Source of the DNA: Spirochaetota bacterium
GTDB taxonomy: Bacteria > Spirochaetota > UBA4802 > JAGODF01
NCBI GenBank assembly: GCA_026419015.1
Contig: JAOAAF010000021.1
Coordinates: 1-34,394 of the forward strand
DNA length: 34,394 nucleotides
Direction of reading: 5' to 3'
Shown here in pieces: positions 568 to 12,831 of the stretch (the stretch's first letter is position 1; each line of letters begins with the position of its first letter). The notes under the pieces were generated by a model. That model was not told the origin of the DNA and did not search any database. It saw nothing but the letters and a program-made list of their open reading frames with translations. The translations under genes were made by a program, and so were the position numbers.

Positions 568-1053
568 ATGCAAATGATCATCGACAATATTAAATTGTAC
601 TATGCCCATGTTCGCCGCACCATGTCGGAATTATTCCGTTCCGATGGTTTTTCATTGCTTGAACTTCTCATCGTAATTGTGATTATTGGTATATTAGGAA
701 CAATTGTATATACCAGATTTATGGATCTTCCCGAAAGAGCAAAAATTCAAGCAGCAAAACAACAAATCCTTATATTTAAAATGGCAATGGATCGCTATCG
801 GCTCGATCACGATGAGTATCCTTCTGGGGAACAGGGGTTAGAAGCGATTCGGAATTATTTAGACTCAAAGGAAGTTCCGCTGGATCCATGGGGAAAGGAA
901 TATATTTTACGCGTCCCTGGCGAAAATGATCGCGAATACGACATTATCAGCTGCGGTCCTGACAAACAAGAAGGGACGGATGATGATATTCGAAGCTGGG
1001 AAATTCATAAAAAAGGTGGCGCATCTGAAACAAAGAATGTCAAACAAGAATAA
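568..1053 (+). CDS. gspG: Type II secretion system major pseudopilin GspG
   Basis: Prepilin motif GFSLLELLIVIVIIGILG; DPWGKEY; C-terminal GPDKQEGTDDDI typical of the GspG calcium-binding region; RBS aaggagg. Confidence 0.95.
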   Translation: MQMIIDNIKLYYAHVRRTMSELFRSDGFSLLELLIVIVIIGILGTIVYTRFMDLPERAKIQAAKQQILIFKMAMDRYRLDHDEYPSGEQGLEAIRNYLDSKEVPLDPWGKEYILRVPGENDREYDIISCGPDKQEGTDDDIRSWEIHKKGGASETKNVKQE

Positions 1054-1654
1054 TCTATCAAAATTGCGCAGCAATATTTTTCTCGATTGGGACGGGTTCA
1101 CGCTTTTGGAACTCATTATCGTATTGGTCATCATTTCTGTAATTACGCTCATCGTGGCTCCTCGCCTTTCAGTTTTTTTTAGCAGCAGTCGAACAAATTT
1201 TATGCTATTCGCATCCATGATAGAAAAAACGTTCGATGATGCATATTTAAAAAAGAGAACGAATTTTTTAGTTCTCCACCTCGGAGAAGGTCCAAGCGAA
1301 CTTTCCGAAATTTCAGAAAAAATCTTCTCCCGCAAAAATGGCATCTCTGTCGTCAACTTTATCGACGGGAAATTCAAGGATAGCCCCAATCCATTGCTTT
1401 CGTATCGAGAATTCCCATCATCGTTCAAACTAGAAGAAGTACTATTATCGACAGGGGAAAAAGTAACCACTGGAAACGTGCTCATCCCTTTTTATCCAAA
1501 TGGTTATTCCGATGATGTAATCGTGCACATTGTAACCAATGATGAAAAATATTCCTTTCGCATTCGGAAATATCAAAAAAAACCTCAGTTCGCGAAGGAC
1601 TTCATTAATTTCGATTACGAAGAATCAGAAAAAGAATTGGAGGCAGAACTTTGA
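1037..1654 (+). CDS. gspH: Type II secretion GspH-like minor pseudopilin
   Basis: Same frame as the ORF at 926 but the likely ATG is 1037 (MSNKNNLSKLRSNIFLDWDGFTLLELIIVLVIISVITLIVAPRL); position between gspG and gspI. Confidence 0.75.
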   Translation: MSNKNNLSKLRSNIFLDWDGFTLLELIIVLVIISVITLIVAPRLSVFFSSSRTNFMLFASMIEKTFDDAYLKKRTNFLVLHLGEGPSELSEISEKIFSRKNGISVVNFIDGKFKDSPNPLLSYREFPSSFKLEEVLLSTGEKVTTGNVLIPFYPNGYSDDVIVHIVTNDEKYSFRIRKYQKKPQFAKDFINFDYEESEKELEAEL

Positions 1655-2025
1655 AAAAGCAAAACGGATTTGCTCTCATCGAAGTGCTCATCGCAACGGC
1701 AATTTTATCGATCGTTCTTTTGAGCATCATCACCGGCATCACTACTGGAATTAATGTGATTACTGGCAATAAAAATCTTACGCGCGCCGTACTGATTGCC
1801 AAAAGCCGCCTCAATGAATTTAAACTTCTTCACATGCGTGGACCCGATCTTGAAAATGAACCAGTTGAAGAATATCCAAACTTCACCTATTCGCGGCGAA
1901 TCCAGCGCTTTGAGCACGAAATTTTTGGACCAATTTCTGCAAACAGGGTTGAAATCATCGTGCGATGGAAAGAAGGTGAAAACGAAAAAAAATACTCTCT
2001 CTCGTATATTTATCCTTCCCAGTGA
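1651..2025 (+). CDS. gspI: Type II secretion GspI minor pseudopilin
   Basis: TTG start; GFALIEVLIATAILSIVLL prepilin motif; operon position; ATGA-type overlap with gspH. Confidence 0.85.
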   Translation: MKKQNGFALIEVLIATAILSIVLLSIITGITTGINVITGNKNLTRAVLIAKSRLNEFKLLHMRGPDLENEPVEEYPNFTYSRRIQRFEHEIFGPISANRVEIIVRWKEGENEKKYSLSYIYPSQ

Positions 2026-2032
2026 GTACACG

Positions 2033-2725
2033 ATGGCTCAAAAAAAATTAATTTCATCGCACAACCTTCCGTATATCTACATCGCACGAAACGGTGATGG
2101 ATTTTCGTTAATCGAAATGCTCGTTGCAATTGCTATTTCGTCTGTTATTCTTCTGATGCTGTATACCTCATATCACTCGGTAATTTCTGCTACAAGCGAA
2201 CTTTCGAAAGTTGCAAACTTTTATGAACAGATTAATTTGGCAATCCATCACATCGATCGCGACATTTCCAACGCATACGTAAATAGACAAAATAAAGATA
2301 TATTTTTTATAGGTGAAAATCAAACTTCATCTCCCTTCAAGGGCAAGCTCAATTTCGTCACTATCAATCATCGTAATTTTGTAATTAACTCGGATCCAGG
2401 AAAAGAAATTCGCTCTAGCGATGTCCACGAAGTAGGATATTATCTAAAATCTTACCGTGACAAACCCGACGAGTTTATGTTAATAAAGCGCGAACAAAAT
2501 ACCTATGATGATGAACCCGAAACAGGTGGCAACGAAAGCGTTATTCTCGATCATGTGATCGACCTTAAATTCGAATTTCGCCTTCGGAACACATGGGTCG
2601 ATTCATGGGATTCACGGAAATACATTAAATTCCCACACGCAGTAAAAACAATACTAAAAGTAAAAAACTATCGCGGTGAGGAAGAAGATTTTATTTTTAT
2701 CTCATATTTGTACATGTCAAAATAA
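2033..2725 (+). CDS. gspJ: Type II secretion GspJ minor pseudopilin
   Basis: Likely ATG at 2033 in the ORF 1796..2725; GFSLIEMLVAIAISSVILLMLY prepilin motif; operon position. Confidence 0.85.
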   Translation: MAQKKLISSHNLPYIYIARNGDGFSLIEMLVAIAISSVILLMLYTSYHSVISATSELSKVANFYEQINLAIHHIDRDISNAYVNRQNKDIFFIGENQTSSPFKGKLNFVTINHRNFVINSDPGKEIRSSDVHEVGYYLKSYRDKPDEFMLIKREQNTYDDEPETGGNESVILDHVIDLKFEFRLRNTWVDSWDSRKYIKFPHAVKTILKVKNYRGEEEDFIFISYLYMSK

Positions 2726-2729
2726 GAAT

Positions 2730-3971
2730 ATGTTTCGCAAAAAAGCCCATATTGCACTTTCTTCTGCGATAAAAATATTTCTCCACAATTATCGGAAAAG
2801 GGAGATGTTGCTCCTTGAGAAAGGGATCTTTCCGTATCTTTTACAGTCAAAGGGGTACGTCCTTGTAATTGTTCTTTTGGTCACTTCTATGCTTGTATCC
2901 ATTTCAACAGAATTTCTCATAACCGCTCAAACCAATATCAATTACCTCCAGAATGTCCGCGATGGGGCCCGCGCTCAATTGATTGCATGGACAGGCATTG
3001 AATTGTGTAAATTCTTGCTCGAGGCCGACAGAAGAGGTTTGGCAGCAGGAACCTTCCTTCAAAAAGCTGACAAAAACATCGATTGTTATGACGACCTCTG
3101 GGCATTTGAATTTCCGGAACTTCCAATTGAAGGAGCTACGCTAAAAATTAGAATTTACGATGAAAATGCAAAAATAAATTTAAGCGTGTTGGCAAACGAA
3201 TTTGTGGATCGCTCACAATTTTATGTTATCACACAGCGTTTCTTTTTAAACCTTGGCCTTCCGATGGATTTAGCAGACTGCATCCTCGATTGGGTTGATA
3301 TCGATGATCAACGTTCCCCTTTTGGAGCAGAATCTCCCGACTATTATCTTACCTTAGAACGCCCTTACCGCGCGCGCAACAAAGAACTCGACAGCCTCAA
3401 TGATCTATTTTTAATTCGCGGAATAACTCCACTATATTTTTATGGACTGGGAGGTGGAAACTTTGGGAAAGAAGAAAATCTTGTTGACGATAACATGGGC
3501 AAAAGAAAGCTACATCCATTATTGCTTTCCGATATGTCACCCGAAAAGGCAAAGGCACTATTAGAAGAAAGAGAAAGAGATGTGCAGCATCTCGAATTAA
3601 AAATAGGGAAAGAAAAAAGCCGCGCGTTCTCAGACTATTTTCGCGCTTATGGCGATAGGAGTGACGTGTATAATGAAATTAATCGAATAAATATAAATAC
3701 TGCGCCATACCGCGTGCTTTCCGCTCTCACCGATTACATGACCGATGATGTAGTTAGCGAACTAATTCGCAGAAGAATTCAACAACCATTCAGTTCTGTA
3801 AATGAAGTCAAAGAATTAATACGCGACGAAACTGTGTTAAAAAACGTGCTGACAGTGAAATCGTATATTTTTAAACTGGAATCAACTGCGAAAGTAGGCC
3901 ATTCTACAATAAAGATTACTGGCTATTACCATAGAGATGATAAACGGTTTTATTACATAAGCGAAGAGTGA
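2730..3971 (+). CDS. gspK: Type II secretion GspK
   Basis: Likely ATG at 2730; GYVLVIVLLVTSMLVSISTEF hydrophobic start, ININTAPYRVLSAL and helix-hairpin-helix-like C-terminal region typical of GspK. Confidence 0.88.
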   Translation: MFRKKAHIALSSAIKIFLHNYRKREMLLLEKGIFPYLLQSKGYVLVIVLLVTSMLVSISTEFLITAQTNINYLQNVRDGARAQLIAWTGIELCKFLLEADRRGLAAGTFLQKADKNIDCYDDLWAFEFPELPIEGATLKIRIYDENAKINLSVLANEFVDRSQFYVITQRFFLNLGLPMDLADCILDWVDIDDQRSPFGAESPDYYLTLERPYRARNKELDSLNDLFLIRGITPLYFYGLGGGNFGKEENLVDDNMGKRKLHPLLLSDMSPEKAKALLEERERDVQHLELKIGKEKSRAFSDYFRAYGDRSDVYNEINRININTAPYRVLSALTDYMTDDVVSELIRRRIQQPFSSVNEVKELIRDETVLKNVLTVKSYIFKLESTAKVGHSTIKITGYYHRDDKRFYYISEE

Positions 3972-3984
3972 TGGGAGGAACGCT

Positions 3985-5625
3985 TTGTTCGAAAAAATTG
4001 CCGCGATAGATGTTGGTACTTCTTGCATTAAGCTTTTGACAGTAAAAACAGGTATTCGAGATTTTCAAATTACCTCATTTGCGTATGAAGATATCGATCC
4101 TTTCATTGAAGATCGCGAAGAAGCACAACGGGATGCACTCGCAAAGCTTTTAGAAGGAAGAGATTTAAAGGGCTATACGATCTATACCAATCTACCGATG
4201 GAAAAAGCAATTATTCGCAACATTGCATTCCCTTTCAGCGATGTTGAGAAGATCGCTGAAGCAATACCATTCGAAGCAGAAGAAAACATCCCGTTTAAAA
4301 TCGAAGATCTCTCGATGGATTTTCAACCTTTAAAGAGCCCAAACTCTCAGGAAGGAAGGATTCTACTGGCTGCAACGCATAAGGATACTTTAATTAATTT
4401 TCTAAGCCTTTTTAAGGATTTTAATCTCCCCCCTGCGCGAATGGGTCTGGAGTCAAATGCACTGTTTGAATGTTATCGCTATTTCAACAAAATCGAAAAC
4501 GAAGCCATCATCCAGCTCGATATTGGACATTCGAAAACCATCCTCAATTTTATCGAAAACAATTCACTGCTTTTCACACGGAGCATCGCTATAGGAACCG
4601 AAGCAATAATAGATGCCTTTCAAGAAGTGTTGGGAACTTCATATGCGGAAGCAATCAGAATTTATGAAAAAGTACGCCTCGATCTCACCTCACTTGAGAA
4701 TAATCTCCAACGAGACATTTTTCGTACACTTGGGATTTCGAAACCAAAATTTCAAAAAATTTTCGCTCTTACCATTGATGTTGTCAATGAACTAATAGAA
4801 CAAATTGGACTTACGCTCAAATCGTTTCAAAACGAATACGGCCATATCGATTTTAATCGCATCATCATCTCAGGAGGAGGATCAAATATTATTGGACTTG
4901 GCCACATGCTTTCCCATGAATTTGAATTACCTGTTGTTTCTCTCCCATTCCTAGAAGGATACGAAGATGTGCGACTCCATAGCCAGTTTCCAATTGCATT
5001 GGGTACAATTCTTTCAATCCTAAACAGAAAATCGTACATTATCAATTTTCTTAAAGGCGAATTTACGCCAGACGTTCTTCACGAAACGAAAAAAATTTAT
5101 TATCTTTCGGGTACCCTTGCAGCATTTGGAATACTTGTCTTCGTGTTTAATTTAAGCATTTCTACTGCATTCGAATCGCGCACAGAAGCAAAGTACGATG
5201 CCCTTTTACAAGAACGTTTCAAACGCTATTTTCACAGTAGACACCCTGTTGAAAATCCCGTTCGCGAAGCGCAAAAAATTCTCTCTGAAGAGAAAAAAGA
5301 TCTTGCGAACCTCGAAAACATCGTTCAAAGCTCAACAAAAATAATTCATGTGCTCAAAGACATTACTGATGCCTTTCCTCGCGACGAAACATTTGTGTTA
5401 AAAAATCTCGTAATTAACGAAAATGTTGTTCGCTTTGATGGAACTGCTTCTTCGAGCAAATTGTTAGAAGATTACAAAAATAAACTCATAGAATCGAAAA
5501 AATTTGAATCTACTGTTTTAAACACGAATATAAAAAGAGGAAATCAAGTAGGATTTACTATGACTATTAAACTGAAAGAAACCAATGGGAAAAAGAATGA
5601 ATCAAAAGGAGACAACATCGAATGA
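3985..5625 (+). CDS. gspL: GspL-like protein: PilM-type actin fold, one TM helix, PilN/GspL-like periplasmic region
   Basis: TTG start with GGGAGGA RBS; AAIDVGTSCIKLL and IISGGGSNIIGL motifs of the PilM/actin fold; TM YYLSGTLAAFGILVFVFNLSIS; operon position. Confidence 0.82.
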   Translation: MFEKIAAIDVGTSCIKLLTVKTGIRDFQITSFAYEDIDPFIEDREEAQRDALAKLLEGRDLKGYTIYTNLPMEKAIIRNIAFPFSDVEKIAEAIPFEAEENIPFKIEDLSMDFQPLKSPNSQEGRILLAATHKDTLINFLSLFKDFNLPPARMGLESNALFECYRYFNKIENEAIIQLDIGHSKTILNFIENNSLLFTRSIAIGTEAIIDAFQEVLGTSYAEAIRIYEKVRLDLTSLENNLQRDIFRTLGISKPKFQKIFALTIDVVNELIEQIGLTLKSFQNEYGHIDFNRIIISGGGSNIIGLGHMLSHEFELPVVSLPFLEGYEDVRLHSQFPIALGTILSILNRKSYIINFLKGEFTPDVLHETKKIYYLSGTLAAFGILVFVFNLSISTAFESRTEAKYDALLQERFKRYFHSRHPVENPVREAQKILSEEKKDLANLENIVQSSTKIIHVLKDITDAFPRDETFVLKNLVINENVVRFDGTASSSKLLEDYKNKLIESKKFESTVLNTNIKRGNQVGFTMTIKLKETNGKKNESKGDNIE

Positions 5626-6140
5626 TCGAACTTACAGGACGCGAAAAAAAGCTTCTTCAAATTTTGGCGGTAGTGCTCGTGCTTGCATTCATTTACTTTT
5701 TTATTATCATGCCCATATCCAACAGAAGGCGTGAAAGCGCAGGGGGTGTGCGCGAGAAAATTGAAAGCATTGCGAAAATCGATCGCATATATGAAGAATA
5801 TCGCCAAGTAAAACAGAAAAAAGCACAATACATGTCCCAATTAGGAAATCGCGACGCAAACATAAATTCAATGATTGAACAATGGGCCGCAAATGCAGGG
5901 GTATCGAGCGCTCTTGCATACACGCGAAGTACGCAAACCTTAATTCAAAATAAATATACAATGGTAACGACAATTATGAAATTCGATGGTGTTGCAATTG
6001 AACCCCTTTTAAAGTTTATTTACGAAGTTGAAAATTCAGCGCTCCTTTTAAAAATAAGCTATATTCGAATGCGGGAAGCAATGAAAGGGGGAAATACGTA
6101 CGATGTCGAATTAAAAATAAACAGCTATTCATTACAATAA
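5622..6140 (+). CDS. gspM: GspM-like (PilO-like) inner-membrane protein
   Basis: Short cytoplasmic tail REKKLLQ, one TM, coiled coil, ferredoxin-like C-terminus; overlaps the gspL stop; operon position. Confidence 0.72.
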   Translation: MIELTGREKKLLQILAVVLVLAFIYFFIIMPISNRRRESAGGVREKIESIAKIDRIYEEYRQVKQKKAQYMSQLGNRDANINSMIEQWAANAGVSSALAYTRSTQTLIQNKYTMVTTIMKFDGVAIEPLLKFIYEVENSALLLKISYIRMREAMKGGNTYDVELKINSYSLQ

Positions 6141-6169: not shown

Positions 6170-7084
6170 ATGAATCTAAAAGATATGTTGCCAACAATAA
6201 AGCGTTTTATAACTAATATAAAGGCATTCATTCAAGAGACATGGAGACTTCCATATGCCAAGTTTTATTTTGCTCTCACATTTATAATGGTTCCGTTTTT
6301 TGTATTTTTTACCTTTCCGTATGAAATATTAATTCGAAATCAACTCCAAAAACTCGAGTCGACTATGGGGCGCAACATACAGATTGGGATGATCGATTTC
6401 AGCATCATTGGCGATAGCTATATTGATTATTTGAATGTTGTATTAGCTGACGGAGCAGAAATTCGATTAAAAGATATAGCTTTTAATATCTCACTCAATC
6501 CCTATCGCCTGTTCATCAGCAAAAAAATAAAAGGTGAAATTCAAATTGGTTCATTTAAATTTACAAAACAAGATATCGCAATAACACACAGCCTTAAAAC
6601 TTCTTTTAATATTCAATTCGATGGGAAAACGGGGATTCCCACAAATGGCGATATAAATCTCGATATCTCTTCAGCTTCGCTGAAAGGAATCACAATAAAG
6701 GGATTTGATATTCCACCTTTAAAATTTTCATCGATTAATGGAGATGGTACGCTAAAAAACCGCCGCCTTCGAATCGATTCATTAAAATTTTCTGGCAACG
6801 ATGTGAATGGAGAAATAAAGGGTTCAATTCAAATCGAACCCATCGCCCATGGATCAAAACTAAACCTTTACATCTATGTGAATTCCGATTCTCGCATCTT
6901 CCAAGAATATAAAATGCTATTGGATAATCTCGAAGAATCAGGGGGAAAAGTAAAAATAGAAATTACTGGCAATTTCAACAATCCGAATGTAAAGATGCCA
7001 TTTAAAGGAAGTGAAACCACAAGGCCGCCAAAAGATGAATTTGAAAAGGCCATTCAAAAACAGGGAACTTTCGATGAAGATTAA
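6170..7084 (+). CDS. gspN: GspN-like type II secretion protein
   Basis: Single N-terminal TM then AsmA-like repeated beta segments; follows gspM as in other gsp loci with gspN. Confidence 0.65.
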   Translation: MNLKDMLPTIKRFITNIKAFIQETWRLPYAKFYFALTFIMVPFFVFFTFPYEILIRNQLQKLESTMGRNIQIGMIDFSIIGDSYIDYLNVVLADGAEIRLKDIAFNISLNPYRLFISKKIKGEIQIGSFKFTKQDIAITHSLKTSFNIQFDGKTGIPTNGDINLDISSASLKGITIKGFDIPPLKFSSINGDGTLKNRRLRIDSLKFSGNDVNGEIKGSIQIEPIAHGSKLNLYIYVNSDSRIFQEYKMLLDNLEESGGKVKIEITGNFNNPNVKMPFKGSETTRPPKDEFEKAIQKQGTFDED

Positions 7085-7131: not shown

Positions 7132-8859
7132 ATGAGAATTGAACTGTCCTCGCATTCAGGTTTCTGCATGGGTGTGCGAAATGCGGTATTAAAAGTCATA
7201 AAAGAACTCAATTCTTTAAAAGAACCAATTTATGTACATGGGCCAATAATACACAATCCACAAACAACTGCAATTCTCGAAAAGCGCGGGTTATTGTTTC
7301 TTGGCGAAAATGAATCGGTCCATGGAAAAATAATCGCAATTCGAACTCATGGCATATCCAAAGAAAAACTGTCGTACATAAAAAATAATGCAACCCGCAT
7401 CATCAATCTTACCTGTCCTCGAGTTGCAAAAGTCCAGGCAATTGTAAAAAAGAATTCAAAAGAGAATGCATTCACCATTATCATTGGCGATGAAGAACAT
7501 GCCGAAGTAATTGGGTTAAAAAGCTATGCGCAATCGGGAGTAATGGTTATATCCAACAAAGCCCAAATCGATGACATTCCACCTGCCTCTCAATATCTGG
7601 TAGTATCTCAAACAACCTACGATCGCGTTTTGTTTGAAGAAATAGTACATGCGCTTAAAGAAAAATTCAAAGATAGGGTGTTCATATTCGATACGATTTG
7701 CAATTCGACTAAAGATAGACAGCAAGACGTGATGATGGCCATTGCTCGCGGTATTAATGTGCTGGTAGTCGTTGGGGGGAAAAATTCTGCCAATACGCGA
7801 AGGCTTGCTGCGTTAGGCACTGAACACGGCATTCGCACCTATCATATTGAAAATGCTGATGAGCTGCGCACAGAAGATTTTAACAAAAGCGACTATGTAT
7901 TCATCACTGCAGGCGCTTCAACACCAGCGTGGATCATAAACAACGTTCTGGAAAAGTTATACAATATACAATATCGCCACTATGGATTTGCTGTCAATTT
8001 TTTGAAACGGCTTTTTGAATTTTTCGTTCGCACAAATATAATTTCATCTGTTTCTGCATTTTTTATCACTGCCTTTACCTCTGCATTCATAGGGATGCGG
8101 AATGGTATTATGATGCCATTGGCATCTTCCCTTTATCTTTTTTCGATGTACACTCTCAATAATTGTCTTACCGCATTGCAGCTTGTTGAAAGCAATCCGT
8201 ATAAATATTCAATTTATTCTAAAAATAAAAAATTATTCCTTGCGCTCGCAATGCTCTGTGCGATTGCGGCAAATATTTTCATATTATCCTGCGGAATTTT
8301 CGCTTTTTCCATCTACCTTTTTTCAACAGCTCTTGGAATTATATATTCCATGAACTTTTTTAAGAAAATGATCGAGAAAACAGGTATATCGCTTGTTCAA
8401 AAGGCATACAATTCAAAAACATTAGTCACGTCGTTTGGTTGGACTATTGTTTGCGCTATCATTCCAATTATTGCACTTAACATTTATAATTTTTCATCCA
8501 TTGCAGTTCTTTTTTTTGTGTTTGGATTTACTTTTTCACGAAACATCATTCTCGACATCATTGGCCTTCAGGGAGATCTCATTTTTGGGAGAGAAACCCT
8601 GCCAATTGTACTTGGAATCACATCGACTGTGCGCACCGCAATATTTGTGAACATTTTATGCTTAACGATATTTCTTTCAATAAGCTTTGCTTTGGGAAAA
8701 TTCCCCATGCTCCTTTTTGCAACTACATATCCGTATTATCTTCTCCTTTTGTTGCATATTTCAAAAAAGGAATATCTTGTGTCCCTCAAATATGAAGTTC
8801 TCACCGAAGCAAATTGTCTATATTTTATACTGCTTTACTGGATATCCTCATCGCTGTAG
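7132..8859 (+). CDS. ispH: Fusion protein: 4-hydroxy-3-methylbut-2-enyl diphosphate reductase (IspH, aa ~1-285) plus UbiA-like membrane prenyltransferase (aa ~290-575)
   Basis: IspH cysteines C12 (HSGFCMGV), C95 (LTCPRV), C190 (DTICNST) and GASTPAWII; then ~8 hydrophobic segments with RNIILDIIGLQGDLIFGRETLPIVLG matching the second UbiA Asp motif (DxxGDxxxGxxTLPVxLG). One uninterrupted frame. Confidence 0.88.
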   Translation: MRIELSSHSGFCMGVRNAVLKVIKELNSLKEPIYVHGPIIHNPQTTAILEKRGLLFLGENESVHGKIIAIRTHGISKEKLSYIKNNATRIINLTCPRVAKVQAIVKKNSKENAFTIIIGDEEHAEVIGLKSYAQSGVMVISNKAQIDDIPPASQYLVVSQTTYDRVLFEEIVHALKEKFKDRVFIFDTICNSTKDRQQDVMMAIARGINVLVVVGGKNSANTRRLAALGTEHGIRTYHIENADELRTEDFNKSDYVFITAGASTPAWIINNVLEKLYNIQYRHYGFAVNFLKRLFEFFVRTNIISSVSAFFITAFTSAFIGMRNGIMMPLASSLYLFSMYTLNNCLTALQLVESNPYKYSIYSKNKKLFLALAMLCAIAANIFILSCGIFAFSIYLFSTALGIIYSMNFFKKMIEKTGISLVQKAYNSKTLVTSFGWTIVCAIIPIIALNIYNFSSIAVLFFVFGFTFSRNIILDIIGLQGDLIFGRETLPIVLGITSTVRTAIFVNILCLTIFLSISFALGKFPMLLFATTYPYYLLLLLHISKKEYLVSLKYEVLTEANCLYFILLYWISSSL

Positions 8860-11201: not shown

Positions 11202-12014
11202 TCATTTTATTGGATATTTTTCCTCATATGCGGTTTTCGGATTCATAAAATATAAAATCATATTTTTTAAATCGGCATTCCTAATTTTTGAAAACAATCT
11301 CCCATTCACCATTACTGAAATGGCACCTGTTTCTTCTGACGTGACGATCACCAATGCATCGGTTTCTTCTGCTATTCCCAAAGCTGCCCGATGGCGCGCG
11401 CCGTGATATTTTTTTAGCTGTTTTGAATCGCTTAATGGAAGATAACAAGCAGCTGCAGCAATGCGTCCTCCTTGAATGATAATTGCACCATCGTGCAGGG
11501 GAGTATTGGGGAAAAAGATAGTTCGAATGATCTCTTCCGAAACGTGCGCATTGATAACAACTCCCGATTCAATATAGCTTTTAAGCCCCGTATTTCGCTC
11601 GATGACAATTAGCGAACCAATTCTCTCTTCAGACATACTGAATACGGCATTAACAAGCTCATCCAGTTGAAAACCCTCTTCACCCGTTAATGCAGCTGCA
11701 AACCAATTGCGCTGTCCAAACTGCGTTATTAGCCTTCGAAGTTCGGGCTGGAAAAGTACAACTACCGTTATTACCAATGATGTCGCTAAATTGGTAATAA
11801 GCCAGTTTACCGTATCGAGCATCAACACCCATGAAAGTATGCCAATGAGCAAAATAACAAAAAAACCGCGAAGAAGCTGAATAGCGCGCGTGTTTGAAAG
11901 AAATGAATAAATCCAGTAAAAAATAAATGCGACGATTAAGATGTCGAGCACATTTCGAAAATATGACCAAAACACTGTAACGTAATACAATATTTTATCG
12001 AACAATGCTTCCAT
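11202..12014 (-). CDS. cdaA: Diadenylate cyclase CdaA
   Basis: DAC motifs LHDGAIII and GARHRAALGIAEETDALVIVTSEETGAIS; N-terminal TMs; track uses an upstream TTG at 12023, ATG at 12014 is likelier. Confidence 0.96.
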   Translation of the reverse strand: MEALFDKILYYVTVFWSYFRNVLDILIVAFIFYWIYSFLSNTRAIQLLRGFFVILLIGILSWVLMLDTVNWLITNLATSLVITVVVLFQPELRRLITQFGQRNWFAAALTGEEGFQLDELVNAVFSMSEERIGSLIVIERNTGLKSYIESGVVINAHVSEEIIRTIFFPNTPLHDGAIIIQGGRIAAAACYLPLSDSKQLKKYHGARHRAALGIAEETDALVIVTSEETGAISVMVNGRLFSKIRNADLKNMILYFMNPKTAYEEKYPIK

Positions 12015-12831
12015 CGAAACCAACCTTTTTTAGCATTTCTACTGCCTTGAGCGCAAGCACATGGGGCCTCACATCGTGGACGCGAACGATATCGGCTCCC
12101 AAATACACAGCAATTGCGTTGAGCGCAATCGTTGCTGGAAGGCGGTCTTCATCAGCATCGTACAGCTTTCCAATAAGCGATTTCCGAGAAAGCCCAATGA
12201 GCAGCGGAAATCCCAACTCTTTGAAAAAAGAAATATTGTTTAATATCTCATAATTTCCCTCGAGAGATTTACCAAACCCGATTCCTGGGTCAATAATAAT
12301 TTTTTCGCGCATTACCCCTGCTGCAAGCGCTTTTTCAATCGCGCGTTGTAGAAATGTGCGAACTTCCTGTAACAGATCGTCATACTCAACATTCTGCTGC
12401 ATCGTTTGTGGCGTTCCCCGAATGTGGGAAATTACCACATGCGCGTTGGCGTCAGCCACTACGCGGACCATTTCATCGTCAAAAGTTAACCCGCTGATGT
12501 CGTTAACCATCGAAGCACCACATCGAATCGCTTCGCGCGCAACGACGGCCTTCGTGGTATCGATCGATATTGGGACTTTACACTTTTTGGCAATTTCTTC
12601 AATCACCGGGCATACCCGCGAAATTTCAACCTCTGCCGGAACAAATGATGCACCCGGGCGCGTTGACTCGCCTCCCACATCGATAATGTCAGCACCCATC
12701 TCGACCATCTCCAACGCATGAGCAACGGCATCTTCAAAACTAATATATCGACCACCATCGTAAAATGAATCGGGTGTCACATTAAGTATTCCCATTATCA
12801 ACGGATATCGCTTTTCTTTATCCCAAATCAC
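11995..12831 (-). CDS. folP: Dihydropteroate synthase
   Basis: MGILNVTPDSFYDGG, IIDVGGESTRPGA, DPGIGFGKS. Confidence 0.97.
   Translation of the reverse strand: MIWDKEKRYPLIMGILNVTPDSFYDGGRYISFEDAVAHALEMVEMGADIIDVGGESTRPGASFVPAEVEISRVCPVIEEIAKKCKVPISIDTTKAVVAREAIRCGASMVNDISGLTFDDEMVRVVADANAHVVISHIRGTPQTMQQNVEYDDLLQEVRTFLQRAIEKALAAGVMREKIIIDPGIGFGKSLEGNYEILNNISFFKELGFPLLIGLSRKSLIGKLYDADEDRLPATIALNAIAVYLGADIVRVHDVRPHVLALKAVEMLKKVGFDGSIVR

Follow-up and report, generated by a model that had tools for sequence, protein, structure and literature searches.

An IspH-UbiA fusion protein of Spirochaetota with an incomplete metal site in its membrane domain

Fusions of IspH with a UbiA-like membrane domain were described by Rao et al. 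in 2015 (Chem Sci, PMC4746011), who reported 47 IspH-UbiA proteins, mainly from Desulfobacterales. Citing two DxxxD repeats, they proposed that the UbiA-like domain receives its prenyl donors from IspH; expression of three such proteins was attempted and yielded no active full-length product (PMC4746011). In AfUbiA, the Mg2+ ligands are N68, D72, D198, and D202; R22 and K146 contact the diphosphate, and Y139/S140 lie close to the bond that is cleaved (PMC4106721). Exchange of N68 or D72 for alanine abolished GPP binding, and equivalents of all four ligands are required in E. coli MenA (PMC4106721).

A gene of this architecture was found in the 34,394-nucleotide stretch of Spirochaetota DNA analyzed here (the window). 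The initial annotation treated such a fusion as not known to be described, a view that the 47 proteins of Rao et al. overturn. Besides that study, our literature search found IspH-UbiA named only in the reference list of one paper, and it returned no paper naming Brachyspira, IspH, and UbiA together.

An IspH half and a membrane half in one frame

The gene runs from ATG to TAG without interruption (Table 1). The in-frame joining of IspH with a UbiA-like membrane domain, as proposed in the initial annotation, was borne out by the single open frame, by the Pfam LYTB match, and by the UbiA fold recovered with AlphaFold2 and Foldseek. The presence of IspH and a UbiA-fold membrane domain in one polypeptide is real and confirmed. 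A sequencing error hiding a stop near residues 285 to 290, which had been named as a possible source of error, is excluded, because 29 other genomes have a continuous frame across the same junction. More generally, nothing was found in favor of a frameshift, a missed stop, or an assembly chimera joining two genes; with architecture and junction repeated in 29 relatives from separate assemblies, an artifact of this kind is ruled out.

Table 1. Features of the IspH-UbiA locus (positions in the window)
Feature	Position	Strand	Basis
Type II secretion operon, remaining genes: gspG, pseudopilin-like gene, gspI, gspJ, gspK, PilM/GspL-like, gspM	568..6140	+	
gspN	6170..7084	+	TIGR04411, 88.5 bits; same neighbor in relatives
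IspH-UbiA fusion gene, 575 aa	7132..8859	+	single open frame; architecture matched in 29 other genomes of the order
IspH domain, residues 1-280	7132..7971	+	PF02401, 269.5 bits; matches to solved IspH chains; residue counts
UbiA-fold membrane domain, residues 281-575, nine long helices	7972..8856	+	PF01040 below cut-off; AlphaFold2 helices; Foldseek match to AfUbiA
Degenerate first Asp-rich motif NNCLTALQL, residues 343-351	8158..8184	+	alignment, counts, AfUbiA register
Y405 S406 ... K411 K412, corresponding to the AfUbiA cluster Y139 S140 ... K146	8344..8367	+	residue counts
Half-kept second Asp-rich motif DIIGLQGD, residues 475-482	8554..8577	+	residue counts

An AlphaFold2 model of the fusion, computed from an alignment of 32 sequences, reached a mean pLDDT of 88.7 and a pTM of 0.80. 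In this model, the IspH helix at residues 266 to 284 leads almost without spacer into a helix at residues 286 to 300, and nine long helices follow. When this model was submitted to Foldseek, IspH 3szu (E 1.8e-17) ranked ahead of AfUbiA 4tq4.

The LYTB profile (PF02401) covered residues 3 to 276 with a score of 269.5 bits against a cut-off of 24.5, and TIGR00216 matched with 257.8 bits against a cut-off of 187.85. Solved IspH chains were matched with E values of 8.6e-51 (3dnf) and, among others, about 2e-33 (3ke8). Alignment to these structures showed that the three Fe-S cluster cysteines (C12, C95, and C190) and the substrate residues are kept. Residues were counted over 30 sequences, comprising the window protein and the 29 other full-length fusions of its order; C12, H41, H73, C95, H123, E125 (E126 of E. 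coli IspH), T161, T162, C190, S219, N221, and S263 are invariant in all 30. By profile and by residues, the IspH half is a complete reductase, and HMBPP reductase activity is predicted for it. Across the assembly (2.98 Mb, 217 contigs), PF02401 matched the fused gene and no other.

Fold, motifs, and metal site of the UbiA half

Over residues 369 to 542, Pfam UbiA (PF01040) scored 26.2 bits (E 5.8e-6) and so fell short of its gathering cut-off of 34.2; among the family members, 16 of 21 matched this profile at E values up to 0.1. When the UbiA half was searched against PDB sequences, the single sequence matched nothing, and the profile matched only chlorophyll synthase, weakly. Foldseek aligned the predicted model to AfUbiA 4tq4 with a probability of 1.00, an E value of 1.1e-3, and a TM value of 0.60 of the target. 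For the assignment of the membrane half to UbiA, the predicted fold and the motifs weigh more than the Pfam score.

To place the AfUbiA register, its printed sequence was used, with INALYDRDVD aligned to INNYFDRDFL of relatives. In this register, N343, T347, and L351 correspond to N68, D72, and D76. The segment YTLNNCLTALQLVESNPY (residues 340 to 357) contains the first Asp-rich motif, which had been described as degraded. This description is correct and applies to the whole clade rather than to this genome alone: the motif does not match NDxxDxxxD, its first Asn staying in place while the window protein has no Asp in it. The D76 position is Leu in 28 of the 30 sequences. At the D72 position, Asp or Glu is present in 22 of the 30 sequences of the order, but the window's own family, with three full-length members, has Thr, Thr, and Met there. 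Brachyspira-type members and those of families f44 and f17 have a first motif without Asp.

The second motif, DIIGLQGD...TLPIVLG, starts at residue 475, as the initial annotation had placed it. Its reported retention holds in part only: D482, the equivalent of AfUbiA D202, is invariant (30/30), but the D198 position is Gly in the window protein (G478), Ala or Gly in 28 of 30 sequences, and acidic in one. DxxxD is not matched, as only its last Asp is present, together with D475, an additional Asp outside the motif that lies seven residues ahead of D482 and occurs in 28 of 30 sequences. Members of family f34 have an intact DxxxD in motif 2. The window protein lacks two of the four Mg2+ ligands of AfUbiA and MenA, having T347 in place of D72 and G478 in place of D198.

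Near-fixed polar residues of the membrane domain are R300, N343, N344, Y405, R470, D482, and E555. R300, equivalent to AfUbiA R22, is found in 28 of the 30 sequences, N343 and Y405 in 29 each, and R470 and E555, like D482, in all. S406 is conserved in 26, and Lys or Arg occupies position 411 in 27, one residue short of the K146 spacing.

Distribution, selection, and gene neighborhood

Full-length frames joining both parts, with 42 to 53% identity, are present in 29 more genomes of the uncultured Spirochaetota order to which the window belongs, and the fusion also occurs in other spirochaete families at lower similarity. The profile of the UbiA half matched 75 of 395 Spirochaetota genomes. One genus, that of Brachyspira hyodysenteriae, accounts for 26 of these, with frames mostly of about 580 to 590 aa; over a compared stretch of 8 kb, a plasmid in one of its genomes is identical to that of B. 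hyodysenteriae ATCC 27164. A scan of the genome collection with the window protein returned only spirochaetes and two clostridia, and the plasmid collection contained no match. The fusion is an old, conserved fixture of a spirochaete lineage.

Two genomes of family f3 (G005 and G015; loci L062 and L063) carry a sister IspH without the UbiA domain, and the UbiA-half profile found no match in either genome. There, the order is a gspM-like frame, gspN, IspH, and then ribH-like and nusB-like frames. In the IspH tree, in which bootstrap values were not settled, the two f3 IspHs are sister to the 30 fused sequences, and at least two changes of fusion state are needed overall. The f3 arrangement may be a loss or a pre-fusion state, as the tree fits both. 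Since these genomes have IspH alone, there are lineages in which IspH can do without the UbiA domain, a point against the explanation preferred below. Apparent split genes in three further genomes (G033, G041, and G042) were rejected as real fissions, their breaks falling at contig ends or gaps.

Some spirochaetes have two IspH genes (G026, G055, and G057; L115, L116, and L105); G026 and G055 each combine a UbiA-fused copy with a stand-alone one. Relatives of the fused domain that exist as separate UbiA-like proteins are encoded at L088 (G089:C247) in tandem copies, the second of which is interrupted, and retain both Asp-rich motifs as NRFTDIRED and DIRDVIGD. A contig of the viral collection (L102:1049-2680) encodes IspH with a hydrophobic tail of about 270 aa, to which Pfam gave no match. 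It adjoins deaminase-like and RadC-like frames and is probably a bacterial flank or contig; the tail may be a far more degenerate UbiA half.

Mean identity to the window protein was 33% for the UbiA half, compared with 55% for the IspH half. By simple counting over pairs with usable synonymous distances, several of them near saturation, dN/dS was about 0.06 to 0.20 for the UbiA half and about 0.05 to 0.11 for the IspH half. The UbiA half thus evolves faster than the IspH half, yet under purifying selection, and its dN/dS values indicate a domain that is constrained rather than decaying.

The fusion is the last gene of a run of type II secretion genes, with gspN ending 47 bp upstream. The gspN-ispH arrangement is conserved across the order: profile tests of nine relatives placed GspN directly upstream of ispH in each, and in nearly all relatives a frame of gspN-like size precedes the fusion, overlapping it by a few bases in some. 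The GspN upstream of the fusion is of the Leptospira type. Farther along the window (11202-12831), a gene for a CdaA-type diadenylate cyclase adjoins one for dihydropteroate synthase; beyond them lie genes for a YbbR-like protein and PdxJ.

A canonical UbiA is encoded elsewhere in the genome (PF01040, 186 bits; TIGR01475, 286 bits), adjoining genes for a UbiX-type protein, a UbiD-type menaquinone decarboxylase, and an aminofutalosine-type radical SAM protein. With a canonical UbiA beside menaquinone genes, prenylation of quinone (menaquinone) does not require the fused UbiA domain.

Possible roles and comparison with known systems

We assign a probability of roughly one half to the explanation that the protein is a membrane-tethered IspH with a UbiA-fold pocket for a prenyl ligand, no longer working as a standard Mg-dependent transferase. 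The fused IspH, the sole one in the assembly, would make IPP and DMAPP, and the C-terminal domain would hold it at the cytoplasmic membrane. This domain would keep a conserved polar pocket suited to a prenyl diphosphate or to another prenyl ligand whose head group is similarly polar, while having lost part of its Mg2+ coordination. Most likely, it would bind the prenyl ligand and position or tune IspH at the membrane, and it would no longer carry out ordinary Mg2+-dependent prenyl transfer; a membrane half that has lost part of its metal-binding site is probably no ordinary transferase. The fusion and its conservation, an IspH half with its key residues in place, a UbiA fold in the model, the loss of acidic ligands, and purifying selection are observed; that the protein is tethered to the membrane, binds a ligand, and has no transfer activity is inferred. 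More tentatively, the domain may in this spirochaete branch have changed from a transferase to a membrane module that binds a prenyl ligand, senses isoprenoid or passes it on, and so positions or regulates IspH, amounting to control of the last step of the MEP pathway by a pseudoenzyme.

The main rival to a tethered IspH with a noncatalytic pocket is a working bifunctional enzyme, in which IspH feeds DMAPP, IPP, or products thereof to a prenyltransferase domain whose metal site is relaxed, along the lines that Rao et al. put forward for the Desulfobacterales fusions. Their argument from two DxxxD motifs (PMC4746011) is joined here by the retained pocket residues N343, Y405, S406, K411, R470, D475, and D482 and by the occurrence of the fusion in several spirochaete families. 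The frequently acidic D72 position, together with the widespread D475, would also allow a rearranged but working metal site, which speaks against our preferred explanation. However, acidic residues are absent from motif 1 of the window protein and its motif 2 is only half there, the absent ligands are two of the four that are important in AfUbiA and E. coli MenA, and the Brachyspira-type motif 1 lacks Asp, too. We regard a bifunctional enzyme as a serious but rather unlikely alternative. Next comes a pure membrane anchor, in which the UbiA fold would be a remnant with no role other than keeping IspH at the membrane. Widespread motif loss, faster evolution of the UbiA half, and the fused hydrophobic tail of L102 would fit an anchor, which we nevertheless consider improbable: polar residues of the membrane domain are invariant or nearly so (R470, D482, E555, and N344), and dN/dS near 0.1 to 0.2 points beyond mere hydrophobic helices. 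Purifying selection and the kept polar residues argue against both an inert anchor and decay.

These findings suggest that an essential isoprenoid enzyme is membrane bound across a whole spirochaete lineage and in the genus of the cultivable Brachyspira hyodysenteriae. For this branch, the published argument for an active fused UbiA prenyltransferase is weakened, and the question of UbiA-domain activity can now be addressed with point mutants of a few conserved residues. Considering its spirochaete distribution and incomplete metal site, the locus is a variant of a known fusion that is worth a bench test, not a new system.

The "Rosetta stone" fusions of Rao et al. share with the present protein an N-terminal IspH and a C-terminal UbiA-like membrane domain in a single polypeptide, as well as a separate canonical UbiA or MenA elsewhere in the genome. 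They differ in belonging to sulfate reducers rather than Spirochaetota and in the two DxxxD motifs, which are reported for them as a property rather than set as a requirement and both of which are incomplete here; the present gene, moreover, closes a type II secretion operon. With the UbiA superfamily (AfUbiA 4tq3-4tq6 and E. coli MenA), the membrane half shares the predicted fold and its nine helices. Equivalents of AfUbiA R22, N68, Y139, S140, and D202 and the DxxxG of motif 2 are kept, whereas those of D76 and D198 are gone in nearly all members and that of D72 is gone in the window's family as well; the Pfam score, too, sets this half apart from the superfamily. IspH-RPS1 fusions, known from Clostridia and others (Rao et al. 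2015, PMC4746011), likewise have a C-terminal part fused to IspH, but this part consists of soluble S1 RNA-binding repeats instead of a membrane domain; the two long clostridial IspH frames found in our scan (L048 and L049) are probably of that kind. The IspH-UbiA architecture is thus already known, and what looks new is its spirochaete branch and the state of the UbiA site therein.
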